21,858 bases of DNA, from positions 1 to 21,858 of the IMG/VR virus record IMGVR_UViG_3300030382_000918, one strand, 5' to 3'. The position numbers and the translations under genes were made by a program. Every line of letters begins with the position of its first letter. Position 1 is the first letter of the stretch. The notes below the pieces were generated by a model that was not told the DNA's origin, searched no databases, and saw only the letters and a list, made by a program, of their open reading frames with translations. Source of the stretch: a virus. Below are positions 18,075 through 20,857 of the stretch, piece after piece.

Positions 18075-18410
18075 TTACTTTAATGATATTTTTTCAGGCT
18101 TTTGCACTATTGCAATAACTTCATCGTCATTGATAATAGTATAATCTTCATTATCATACTTAAATTTACTACCAACATATTTTCCAGTAAGCACCCAGTC
18201 ACCTACTTTACACCAGTTTTTTCCTTTTTCTTCGTAACATTCAGGCCCCATAGATACTACTTTAGATATATTTGTGGCATGTTTCTGCCATTCTTTAGTA
18301 GTATCAGCAAGTATAATACCTCCTGTTGTTTTTTCTTGTATTTCCCTAGGCTTTAATAATATTCTAAAACCTGCGGGAATTGGTAAATTTTCATCATATT
18401 GCATGATCAT
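18075..18410 (-). CDS. groES: GroES-like co-chaperonin (111 aa)
   Basis: A Cpn10-family lid for the GroEL folding chamber. PAGFRILLKPREIQ (residues 12-25) is the first conserved strand. The mobile loop at residues 26-37 (EKTTGGIILADT) carries the GroEL-binding hydrophobic tripeptide Ile32-Ile33-Leu34 after Gly-Gly. VVSMGPECY then KVGDWVLTGKYVGSKF and INDDEVIAIV complete the fold. It is slightly longer than bacterial GroES (about 97 residues). No GroEL is encoded in the window, so it probably works with the host chaperonin, as T4 gp31 does for capsid folding. It is followed directly by scaffold and capsid genes. The start could be 18410, overlapping the previous stop, or 18404, seven bases after AGGAG; both fit. 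Confidence 0.85.
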   Translation of the reverse strand: MIMQYDENLPIPAGFRILLKPREIQEKTTGGIILADTTKEWQKHATNISKVVSMGPECYEEKGKNWCKVGDWVLTGKYVGSKFKYDNEDYTIINDDEVIAIVQKPEKISLK

Positions 18411-18613
18411 TCTCCTTCTCCTGTTTTAAATAATTTAATATACTCATCATGAAACCTTGATTTCATATCTGCTAAAGTTTGACCAACTCCAACCAAATAT
18501 TTATAAGTAGGAAAATCATCTGCTGCGCCGCCTATAATTTGTTCCTTATTAGTTTCTATTGCATCATTAAGTATTTTATCTATTTTTTCTTTATATGAAT
18601 TTACATCTGACAT
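18407..18613 (-). CDS. Conserved small phage protein (68 aa)
   Basis: A soluble, mostly helical protein: SYKEKIDKILNDAIETNKEQ at residues 6-25, then IIGGAADDFPTYKYLVGVGQ and a C-terminal helix (ADMKSRFHDEYIKLF). The YKYLVGVGQTL block resembles a small conserved marine phage protein encoded near structural genes. There is a clear ribosome site (AGGAG). Its stop overlaps the GroES start region, so the two are coupled. Function is unknown. Confidence 0.75.
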   Translation of the reverse strand: MSDVNSYKEKIDKILNDAIETNKEQIIGGAADDFPTYKYLVGVGQTLADMKSRFHDEYIKLFKTGEGE

Positions 18614-18647
18614 TGTGTTTCTCCTGTAAGAGGGGGCACGATTGTTA

Positions 18648-19061
18648 TTATTTAATTTTAATTGTTTTAGGTTTCTTTTCCTCTGGTACTATTTTCTCTA
18701 ATTCAATAGATAGCATACCATTAGTAAATTCTGCTCCATTAACAATTACATCTTCAGCAAGACAAAAAGATCTTGTAAAGGCTCTTTGTGAGATACCTTT
18801 ATGCATTATATCTTTTTCTTCTTGATCTTGTTTTTTGGATTTTATTTTAAGTGTATTATCAGCATAGCTTATATCAATACTCTTTTTATCAAAGCCAGCT
18901 AATGCTACTTCAATTGAATATTTAAAATCATCTATCTTTCTGATATTGTATGGTGGATAACTCGGTGCATCCATTTGTATGGTTGTGAGTCTGTCCATCA
19001 GGGAATCAAAGCCAACTGTAAATGGTCTATATGGTTCCCAGTCTATTAGTGATCTAATCAT
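18648..19061 (-). CDS. hsp20: Small heat-shock protein Hsp20/IbpA-like (137 aa)
   Basis: An ATP-independent holdase that keeps unfolding proteins soluble. An N-terminal arm (residues 1-33, with FTVGFDSLMDRL) precedes the alpha-crystallin domain. This begins YPPYNIRKIDDFKYSIEVAL (residues 35-54), continues with GFDKKSIDISYADNTLKIKS and FTRSFCLAEDV, and ends with the signature NGMLSIELEK. The C-terminal I-x-I motif is present (IKI, residues 134-136), used for oligomer assembly. Length and YPPYNI are typical of IbpA-type proteins. It has its own perfect sigma-70 promoter (19117-19145), and its ribosome site lies in a hairpin directly before the ATG (19062-19085), so host sigma-70 transcription and temperature-sensitive translation are both possible. 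GroES follows two genes later. Confidence 0.93.
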   Translation of the reverse strand: MIRSLIDWEPYRPFTVGFDSLMDRLTTIQMDAPSYPPYNIRKIDDFKYSIEVALAGFDKKSIDISYADNTLKIKSKKQDQEEKDIMHKGISQRAFTRSFCLAEDVIVNGAEFTNGMLSIELEKIVPEEKKPKTIKIK

Positions 19062-19085
19062 AATTTCCTCCTTTTAAGCAAAATT
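19062..19085 (-). promoter_or_regulatory. ROSE-like RNA thermometer candidate in hsp20 leader
   Basis: The minus strand has AATTTTGCTTAAAA followed by GGAGGAAATT, ending at the base before the hsp20 ATG. AATTT pairs with AAATT. TTGCT lies opposite the GGAGG ribosome site, with a G-G mismatch, a C-G pair and wobble pairs. U(U/C)GCU facing the ribosome site is the hallmark of ROSE thermometers in small heat-shock gene leaders. A small GAAA-loop hairpin lies upstream (about 19094-19107). Folding is judged by eye. Confidence 0.45.
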
Positions 19086-19116
19086 AAATCTAACCCCTTT
19101 CGGCGGCTATAGCTTA

Positions 19117-19145: not shown

Positions 19146-19602
19146 GTGGAGTATTGATGTCTATATCTGAAGGTTTAGGTTGAATATCTTTACATTTCTC
19201 TCGAACGGTTGCAAACTCTGGGCCTAATTCTAAATTTTTATAACGACCACATAACTTAAGAAGTTCTAATTCTTGTTTAAGTTTCATATTGTCTTTCATT
19301 GTTCTTTTGAATGTATCATTACAAGTAGAGCCTAATTCCCACCTCAATCTTAAACCCACTCTGTATTCGTCTCTTTCTCCTTGTGGATATATGAAAGTAT
19401 TTAAGCTATCATTAGTTGTATAGTAGCTTCCGCTTTCAGAATTACTTAAGCTATAATCTACATAAGGTTCAATACTTCCCCTACTACAATGAGTAGGATA
19501 ATCATTTAAATATTCATTAGCAGCTTTTGCTGTTGTAGAACTAGACCAGATATAGCCTAAAGCCAAAGCTAGTAGAATTAAATAAAATTTAATTTCTTTC
19601 AT
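19129..19602 (-). CDS. Secreted periplasmic/envelope protein of unknown function (157 aa)
   Basis: A Sec signal peptide is clear: a Lys-containing start, a hydrophobic core (FYLILLALALGYIW, residues 6-19) and a probable cut after Ala27 (AKA/AN). There is no lipobox cysteine, so it is not a lipoprotein. The mature part has Tyr/Ser-rich sequence with EPYVDYSLSN, a strand-like DEYRVGLRLRWELGSTC (residues 78-94), then a helix (MKLKQELELLKLCGRYKNL) and four Cys that could pair. I recall a similar family in marine cyanophages. Its start overlaps the membrane coiled-coil gene stop (TAATG), so the pair is made together and could span the periplasm in a spanin-like way. Without a lipobox that remains speculative. 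The hsp20 promoter is embedded in its 3' end. Confidence 0.8.
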   Translation of the reverse strand: MKEIKFYLILLALALGYIWSSSTTAKAANEYLNDYPTHCSRGSIEPYVDYSLSNSESGSYYTTNDSLNTFIYPQGERDEYRVGLRLRWELGSTCNDTFKRTMKDNMKLKQELELLKLCGRYKNLELGPEFATVREKCKDIQPKPSDIDINTPLDNSE

Positions 19603-19949
19603 TACCAGCCTCCGTTTAATTGTCTAGTAAGTTCCTTAATGTCATATGTGTTTTGCCTAATGGTGTCTTCGATTTTATAACCATTTTCTCTAGCAGCTTG
19701 TATGTATGCAGTACCTTCGGCAAGTTCGGTAGCTATTCTAGTCATCTCTCTAGTAAAGTCTTCTTTGGTTCGAGTCATCTCGTTATCCCAATAGCTGAGA
19801 TCTTTTCTTATCATCTCAATCTCACGAGCTGCACTTTCTATAGCATTTGTCATTTGGTTAAAAGTTGTAATAGCATAATACATAGAAGATAGTAATGCTG
19901 CTACTACAGGTATATAAATAAAATACCTTTTGATATCATCTAAATTCAT
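19602..19949 (-). CDS. Membrane-anchored coiled-coil protein (115 aa), possible inner-membrane spanin-like
   Basis: The N-terminus is short, then one membrane segment (YIPVVAALLSSMYYAITTF, residues 12-30) and a long charged helical domain to the end (ESAAREIEMIRKDLSYWDNE, KEDFTREMTRIATELAEG). The topology, a membrane anchor then periplasmic coiled coil, is that of inner-membrane spanins, and it is coupled by TAATG to a signal-peptide protein. It has a perfect sigma-70 promoter 25 bases above the ATG and a GGAG ribosome site. No lysis enzyme is visible in the window, so spanin function is an inference. A host-membrane effector or injection-related factor is the alternative. Confidence 0.75.
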   Translation of the reverse strand: MNLDDIKRYFIYIPVVAALLSSMYYAITTFNQMTNAIESAAREIEMIRKDLSYWDNEMTRTKEDFTREMTRIATELAEGTAYIQAARENGYKIEDTIRQNTYDIKELTRQLNGGW

Positions 19950-20659: not shown

Positions 20660-20857
20660 TTATTTATTTCTTTTTAAACTACTGCTTATTTTCTTCTTCT
20701 TTTTTTTCTTCTTTTTCTTGCCATATTTTTTCTCCCATTCTTTAGCAAGTTTGGATTCATTGGCATGTAAATATTTTCTTTGCTTCTCAGATTTAAAAGG
20801 CATTTTTTTTATTCCTTGTTTTACTGTTTGTTCTGTTTGTGCTCTAGTTATAACCAT
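20660..20857 (-). CDS. Small poly-lysine basic protein (65 aa)
   Basis: It contains PFKSEKQRKYLHANESKLAK (residues 20-39), a short block recurring in small basic proteins of many phages, then a run of ten Lys (residues 46-55) and ISSSLKRNK. It probably binds nucleic acid by charge. The ATG at 20857 has AGGA 7 bases upstream and overlaps the upstream gene by 14 bases. A second ATG at 20803 (giving 47 residues) also has AAGGA 9 bases away and would match the usual length, so both starts may be used. The Lys run contains A AAA AAG in the correct frame for a -1 slip, leading to a stop seven codons later. Confidence 0.75.
   Translation of the reverse strand: MVITRAQTEQTVKQGIKKMPFKSEKQRKYLHANESKLAKEWEKKYGKKKKKKKKKKISSSLKRNK

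Follow-up and report, generated by a model that had tools for sequence, protein, structure and literature searches.

By its structure, the leader of hsp20 in the window, a 21,858-base virus record, is a conserved ROSE-type element that recurs in several phage groups. The element consists of two hairpins, the second of which covers the ribosome site, and it probably serves as a short translational control element through which Hsp20 is made on demand as temperature rises. The longer open reading frames (ORFs) of the window lie on the minus strand, among them hsp20 itself (18648 to 19061, 137 amino acids), which encodes a small heat-shock protein (PF00011, E = 9.1e-18) and whose ATG (19061-19059) directly follows a 24-base inverted repeat. 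Downstream, a 68-amino-acid ORF (18407 to 18613, minus strand) with no Pfam match at E ≤ 0.01 overlaps the start of a gene for a groES-like co-chaperonin (Cpn10; 18075 to 18410, minus strand, 111 amino acids, PF00166, E = 6.2e-16), and a capsid gene (PF25209) lies further downstream. The adjoining hsp20 and groES-like genes (18075-19061, minus strand) form a small chaperone set upstream of the capsid gene, whose product is nearest to its counterparts in DSL-LC04, HTVC023P, and HTVC027P (58 to 60% identity).

A perfect sigma-70-type promoter, TTGACA-17-TATAAT (19145-19117, minus strand, 12/12 consensus positions), stands above hsp20, as the preliminary description of this DNA had reported. This predicted promoter precedes the element, and the transcript would begin near 19110, approximately 49 nt before the ATG and upstream of the repeat; a start downstream of 19085, against which that description had cautioned, is not what this promoter predicts. 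The constant transcription proposed there would follow from the consensus match of the promoter. Among 19 promoter-like sites between 17000 and 21858, the only other site to score 12/12 is a second TTGACA-17-TATAAT at 20002-19974 (minus strand), upstream of a 115-amino-acid ORF (19602-19949). A 65-amino-acid ORF (20660-20857, minus strand) carries a long lysine run near its end (KKYGKKKKKKKKKK).

On the minus strand, the leader reads TATAAT-TAAGCTA-TAGCCGCCGAAAGGGGTTA-GATTT-AATTTTGCTTAAAAGGAGGAAATT-ATG. The 24-base inverted repeat over the ribosome site, AATTTTGCTTAAAAGGAGGAAATT, was found exactly where it had been described, at 19085-19062, ending immediately before the hsp20 ATG. It can form hairpin II (19062 to 19085, AAUUUU[G]CUU-AAAAG-GAG-GAAAUU), in which UUGCU (19081-19077, bulged G at 19079) lies opposite the Shine-Dalgarno (SD) sequence AGGAGG (19067 to 19072). 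The element proved larger than first described, with an upstream hairpin added at 19109-19091 and a covariance model match (see below) that spans 19113-19059. This hairpin I (UAGCC[G]CC-GAAA-GGGGUUA, minus strand) has its bulged G at 19104, and its core was predicted to fold in this manner at 5 to 37°C. Nearest-neighbor folding of the 24-mer gave UUU-G-CUU / GAG-G-AAA at 10 to 37°C, which bears out the G-G mismatch that had been proposed between UUGCU and the SD, and gave the single-bulged-G register, AAUUUU[G]CUU AAAAG GAG GAAAUU, at 5°C. The best predicted fold of the window leader runs into the hsp20 coding start and does not close at the 24-mer. In this fold (19090-19049, minus strand), leader GAUUUAAU pairs with the hsp20 codons AUUAGAUC; the partner of this leader stretch reads AUUAAAUC in locus L009, and by eye the pairing is not kept in L005 and L012.

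Taken alone, the window repeat is not beyond chance. When the last 20 nt of the leader (including UUGCUU and the SD) were kept and the 40 nt preceding them were shuffled, 387/2000 shuffles gave a bulged-G hairpin of at least 9 pairs, and 50/500 shuffles were as stable as the window leader at 20°C. Since the window sequence is not significant by itself, the evidence must come from its relatives, across which the arrangement is far beyond chance.

We collected 290 loci from scans of viral contigs with five phage Hsp20 proteins, one scan of genome contigs, eight named phages, and a copy of the window (L081). Removal of two loci lacking an Hsp20 ORF by profile, six lacking an ATG, and six with a leader of <60 nt left 276 loci, whose leaders, all 60 nt or longer, comprise 147 distinct sequences (141 phage and 6 bacterial). 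The sample is uneven, as each viral scan contributed at most 80 loci, of 199, 130, and at least 590 relatives found in three of the scans; metagenomic contigs were counted without regard to habitat, and 18 phage records were examined out of the 506 in which Hsp20 was matched. The loci include the Pelagibacter phages HTVC103P, HTVC104P, HTVC115P, and HTVC008M, the Methylophilales phage Melnitz-3, and the cyanophages S-PM2 and Syn33, along with bacterial assemblies labelled SAR86, SAR324, Gammaproteobacteria, and Alphaproteobacteria.

A YGCT motif occurs 12 to 35 nt before the ATG in 142/147 leaders. A mechanical matcher, which looks for paired arms around one unpaired G, found a ribosome-site hairpin with one bulged G in 143/147 hsp20 leaders versus 11/336 control start sites, these being other start sites of the same loci (337 minus that of L081) taken from mechanical ORFs of at least 80 amino acids that have an SD but are not proven to be genes. 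The 143 positives include at least one spurious case (L195), and in L164 the matcher took the wrong site, although the canonical hairpin is present. An upstream hairpin I with a bulged G was found in 140/147 leaders. For named isolates (ten more cyanophages and the seven obtained earlier), the matcher found hairpin II in 17/17 and hairpin I in 15/17. In HTVC115P, hairpin I contains AGCU, which falls outside the rules of the matcher but can pair by eye. The annotated Hsp20 start of S-SSM4 (L309) seems too far downstream, being preceded by an ATG behind an SD and a ROSE-type hairpin; for this reason, hairpin I of this isolate was left unscored.

Several variants of the arrangement were observed. 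The first base of U(U/C)GCU varies among relatives (e.g., ACGCU), and in an HTVC008M-like subgroup (L194, L195, L196, L199, and L201), UGUCU replaces the motif; by eye, an unpaired G can persist in this subgroup in a shifted register. By eye, SAR86 and other gammaproteobacterial loci (L091-L095) have two tandem copies of a hairpin-I-type structure (GAUGCC..GGGUUC and GCAUGCC..GGAUGC) before the ribosome-site hairpin. In five loci (L009, L035, L036, L043, and L045), ORFs of 302 to 303 amino acids, which is the size of a capsid protein, start behind GACUGCUUAA..GGAGU, a weaker ROSE-like arrangement. A similar arrangement was looked for at the start of the window's capsid gene and was absent.

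Promoter motifs are frequent directly upstream of the element in three groups of leaders that we defined by locus number. Among 30 distinct window-clade leaders, 27 have a −10 box (TATAAT/TATACT) upstream of the element and 20 have a TTGACN −35 box; −10 boxes stand just before hairpin I in 32/37 HTVC103P-type leaders. In the T4/Melnitz-like group, 41/74 leaders have TATAAATA-like motifs just before hairpin I, which we take to be T4 late promoters. With promoter motifs in this position, the 5′ leader would amount to little more than the two hairpins.

Compensating base changes in related leaders, on which the preliminary description had staked its reading, were abundant. RNAalifold on whole MAFFT alignments of 76 leaders returned only a weak consensus because registers and loop lengths differ between leaders. 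We relied on an alignable subset, a model-fitted alignment, and swap tests that do not depend on register. In the swap tests, 3′ arms were exchanged between cluster representatives, with the best register chosen equally for native and exchanged arms. Native hairpin I arms formed 8.37 bp versus 2.90 (SD 0.27) after exchange (73 representatives; the highest of 20,000 permutations reached 3.86), and native hairpin II arms formed 7.48 bp versus 5.82 (SD 0.16; 75 representatives), a value reached by 0/20,000 permutations.

For the alignable subset, 24 leaders that aligned alike at the SD were taken from 62 and five were dropped, three of them after a shifted hairpin I was seen; selection thus favored rows that aligned cleanly, and these same rows supplied the structure. 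This plain MAFFT alignment comprises 19 leaders; paired cells made up 95.3% versus 83.4% in shuffles, 8/16 pairs were changed on both sides (seven in hairpin I and one in hairpin II), and 0/500 shuffles matched the native covariation. The model-fitted alignment of 68 distinct leaders, which leans towards its own structure, had 92.7% of cells paired versus 70.5% in shuffles and at most 57.2% in slid controls. Here 14/16 pairs were changed on both sides (nine in hairpin I and five in hairpin II), doubly changed cells numbered 219 versus 71 in shuffles, and covariation was 0.599 versus 0.206 in shuffles and at most 0.130 in slid controls. This alignment lacks 6 of 77 sources (L066, L068, L091, L092, L094, and L285), and L085 and L093 are aligned on hairpin I only. 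The bulged G is constant in all ungapped rows (70/70 for hairpin I and 69/69 for hairpin II), while the stem bases before the G in hairpin II vary freely (CUC, AUC, GUC, UAAC, and CUU).

The Rfam ROSE covariance search that had been suggested as a check gave no match in the window, even at E ≤ 10, and in 13 other loci Rfam returned only a tRNA over cutoff and no ROSE element. None of the examined phage leaders scored over the gathering cutoff of RF01832, RF02523, or the other Rfam ROSE model. ROSE_3 matched the hsp20 leaders of Melnitz-3 (34.1 bits, with a cutoff of 43), G006, and AG-345-P14 below cutoff (3/14 records). These matches are weak evidence because ROSE_3 at E ≤ 1 also matched in 6/14 control genomes. 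ROSE_3 further had an off-target match in the phage record G005 (E = 8.9e-5), which outscores two of the three matches to leaders; by eye, this site lacks U(U/C)GCU opposite an SD and was rejected as a further element.

With no window match in Rfam and no ROSE element over cutoff in the 13 loci, we built our own covariance model, R1, from 19 leaders (that of Melnitz-3 and 18 found with the Melnitz-3 Hsp20). In a search of 434 kb, R1 scored 28.3 bits (E = 1.1e-5) for the window element at 19113-19059. At E ≤ 10, it matched the leader in 79/85 sources, none of which had been used for building, although four of these matches (L085, L091, L093, and L094) cover the 5′ part only; the misses were five phage leaders (L066, L068, L178, L196, and L285) and E. 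coli ibpA. Outside hsp20 leaders, no match in this search had an E value below 0.29, the value of the best one. When whole records were searched, the hsp20 leader was the best R1 match in 14/14 records, including Melnitz-3, which is a training row, and HTVC008M, where the match is to the 5′ part; the next best match anywhere had an E value of 0.005, and no U(U/C)GCU hairpin at an SD was seen at its site. The second-best sites in W04 and G004 were rejected, as by eye they lack U(U/C)GCU opposite an SD. In 299 further genomes from the phylum of an alphaproteobacterial assembly, R1 reached E ≤ 0.001 in two, in each case upstream of an Hsp20 gene; by our reading, one of these genes has a GTG start. 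This count (2/299) is a lower bound, as the strict filters missed the known leader of G013.

ROSE elements are described as RNAs of two to four hairpins in which U(U/C)GCU pairs with the SD and a G is bulged (Krajewski et al., PMC3669281; PMC11182007 and PMC11342760, in the portions relied on here), and the presence of these features is the reason that the phage leaders are filed as ROSE type on structure. The leader lies directly before a small heat-shock gene, with hairpin II ending immediately before the ATG. U(U/C)GCU pairs with the SD in the 3′ hairpin (UUGCU opposite AGGAGG), and the guanine of the motif is bulged or G-paired (G in 69/69 rows and in the predicted fold). The 5′ hairpin is stable, as in ROSE elements of two to four hairpins (hairpin I in 140/147), and compensating changes keep the structure. 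Of the ROSE-like thermometer originally proposed for hsp20, the gene assignment (PF00011, E = 9e-18), the motif, and the layout held, and a match of the window to Rfam ROSE models did not materialize. A FourU thermometer was considered and rejected: in L001, whose leader is identical to that of the window, UUUU (19083-19080) faces GAAA and not AGGA, and relatives swap the Us (UAAC, AUC, GUC, and CUC) while keeping [G]CU.

Among known systems, ROSE_2 (RF01832) of E. coli ibpA likewise precedes a small heat-shock gene and has the same order, with a hairpin carrying one bulged base first and then CUC[G]CUG AUUU CAGGAG over the ribosome site. Rfam ROSE_2 scores E. coli ibpA at 100.4 bits, and both of its two hairpins have one bulged base on the 5′ arm. 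In contrast, the phage leaders examined fall below the Rfam cutoff, and R1 does not match E. coli ibpA. The short ROSE-like thermometers of Pseudomonas ibpA also consist of two hairpins only, with a GC-rich hairpin I and a hairpin II in which U(U/C)GCU faces the SD (PMC3669281, in part). Their heat response has been tested and is sigma-32 dependent according to the same source, while the phage elements are known from sequence; unlike Pseudomonas ibpA, many phage leaders stand behind sigma-70-like or TATAAATA promoter motifs. In ROSE-G, the bulged G of the motif faces a bulged G of the SD, as in the window fold at 10 to 37°C, but the motif is CUGCU and its description, in the sections drawn on here, places it before ABC transporter genes (PMC12857270). 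As in lambda cIII, the SPbeta blyA fourU, and the Caudoviricetes sigma70 fourU, a phage leader structure at the ribosome site would control translation, but as presented in portions of the two source papers none of these is ROSE type or located before hsp20 (PMC11182007 and PMC10586365). Synechocystis hsp17 is a cyanobacterial small heat-shock gene under an RNA thermometer, although its layout, as given in the relevant part of PMC4477652, is not that of the phage leaders.

Folding models of the nearest-neighbor type handle G-G and other noncanonical pairs poorly. The predicted SD accessibility of the window-type leader was 0.50 to 0.53 from 5 to 30°C. At 20°C, the median ViennaRNA accessibility was 0.51 for 76 hsp20 leaders versus 0.56 for 150 controls sampled from the 336, and the change from 10 to 37°C was 0.05 versus 0.04. 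In this comparison, hsp20 leaders were not predicted to be more closed than controls at 5 to 30°C (P = 0.15 to 0.25; P = 0.01 only at 50°C) or more temperature dependent (P = 0.27). The same calculation for E. coli ibpA, a thermometer that is among the most thoroughly studied (PMC3669281, in part), gave 0.13 at 10°C and 0.33 at 37°C. Heat opening is neither supported nor excluded by the ViennaRNA predictions.

On the analogy with characterized ROSE elements, from which we infer the role of hairpin I, the block to translation, and the opening by heat, temperature control of phage hsp20 by its leader is likely. Transcription from the promoter at 19145-19117 would start approximately 49 nt before the ATG and place hairpin I, a stable stem, at the 5′ end, where it may aid folding and protect the message. 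Hairpin II would hold the ribosome site, with the U(U/C)GCU strand pairing imperfectly with AGGAGG so that a guanine is left unpaired or paired with another G. Owing to this imperfect pairing, the ribosome site would open easily when the RNA warms, and phage Hsp20 would then be produced on demand.

Among other readings of the leader, the idea that an inverted repeat arose by chance at a ribosome site rich in A and T would be compatible with the window alone (387/2000 shuffles) but is opposed by the covariation, the swap tests, and the model matches, and we give it next to no weight. It is very unlikely that the leader instead serves a different regulator, for example the RegA repressor of phages. 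The regA gene is annotated just upstream of hsp20 in S-PM2, S-CAM4, and ACG-2014e, but the element is also found where the annotated neighbor is not regA (HTVC115P, HTVC103P, HTVC008M, and Syn33), and RegA targets are sites around the AUG. Plain translational damping, in which the hairpins fix a low initiation rate or protect the mRNA 5′ end and sense nothing, would agree with a predicted accessibility that is nearly flat with temperature and with the presumably small temperature changes met by seawater hosts. We nonetheless regard damping as improbable, as it leaves a constant bulged G and GCU unexplained across groups whose stems have otherwise changed.

A reading that is compatible with a thermometer, and which we hold as a tentative possibility, is proteostasis feedback, in which the leader serves above all to bind phage Hsp20. 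Free Hsp20 on both hairpins would stop translation, unfolded proteins late in infection would titrate it away, and temperature would have a minor or indirect part. There is precedent in E. coli, where IbpA represses its own translation via the 5′ untranslated region and Arg93 is needed (PMC10474464, in part). The window Hsp20 has an arginine at this position (read from the identical protein of L001). Across 167 distinct phage proteins, the Arg93 column holds Arg in 159 and Lys in 8, the Tyr34 column an aromatic residue in 167/167, and the Arg97 column Arg or Lys in 164/167. Moreover, hairpin I is stable and its bulged G does not vary (70/70 rows), which is more than a melting switch would seem to need. 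Against this reading, the Lys98 column is Lys in only 39/167 phage proteins and Ser in the window's protein, and the Lys98-to-Ala mutant of IbpA is inactive in E. coli. R93 is also common to alpha- and gammaproteobacterial IbpA in the portion of that paper used here (PMC10474464) and may be kept for other reasons. An extension of this idea, more speculative and on balance doubtful, is a folding-stress sensor of marine phages: Hsp20 on its own two bulged-G hairpins would be titrated off by unfolded proteins as late proteins accumulate, so that its output would track assembly load and temperature would tune the set point, and the cyanophage versions would be a proteobacterial-style ROSE-type RNA inside cyanobacteria. 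With these alternatives weighed, heat-responsive translational control by a two-hairpin ROSE-type leader remains the reading that we consider probable.

That few thermometers had been described in phages, as the preliminary description supposed, fits the literature (PMC11182007 and PMC10586365, in part). Phage thermometers named in the portion of a 2024 paper relied on here are a Caudoviricetes sigma70 leader, lambda cIII, and SPbeta blyA (PMC11182007). By title or abstract, we found no ROSE element in a phage and no thermometer before a phage hsp20 in the open-access literature, a scope that leaves most subscription papers and all bioRxiv preprints outside. Two papers about the Hsp20 proteins of cyanophages, searched by word, yielded no leader or thermometer in the text covered (PMC3827213 and PMC5028025). 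The covered text of the Melnitz paper mentions hsp20 as well as a glutamine riboswitch, and the word "thermometer" is absent from it (PMC9004378). In the pertinent sections of a survey of 104 motifs, the cyanophage motifs are manA, PhotoRC-II, and wcaG, with none tied to hsp20 (PMC2864571). Part of the Melnitz paper calls hsp20 a core gene of T4-like cyanomyophages (PMC9004378), and no account of its control was found in the papers searched.

The element is present in isolates infecting Pelagibacter, Methylophilales, Synechococcus, and Prochlorococcus. The same RNA type before hsp20 in several groups of ocean phages suggests that phages may adjust this chaperone to temperature or folding stress. 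The natural variants have value as a resource as well: in them, bulged guanines stay constant while the stems around them are compensated in many ways, which shows how much variation the ROSE motif can bear. Should the leaders act as ROSE elements, RNA thermometers would not be a rarity in phages, and one could ask directly whether the supply of phage chaperone, and through it burst size, follows sea temperature or folding stress.
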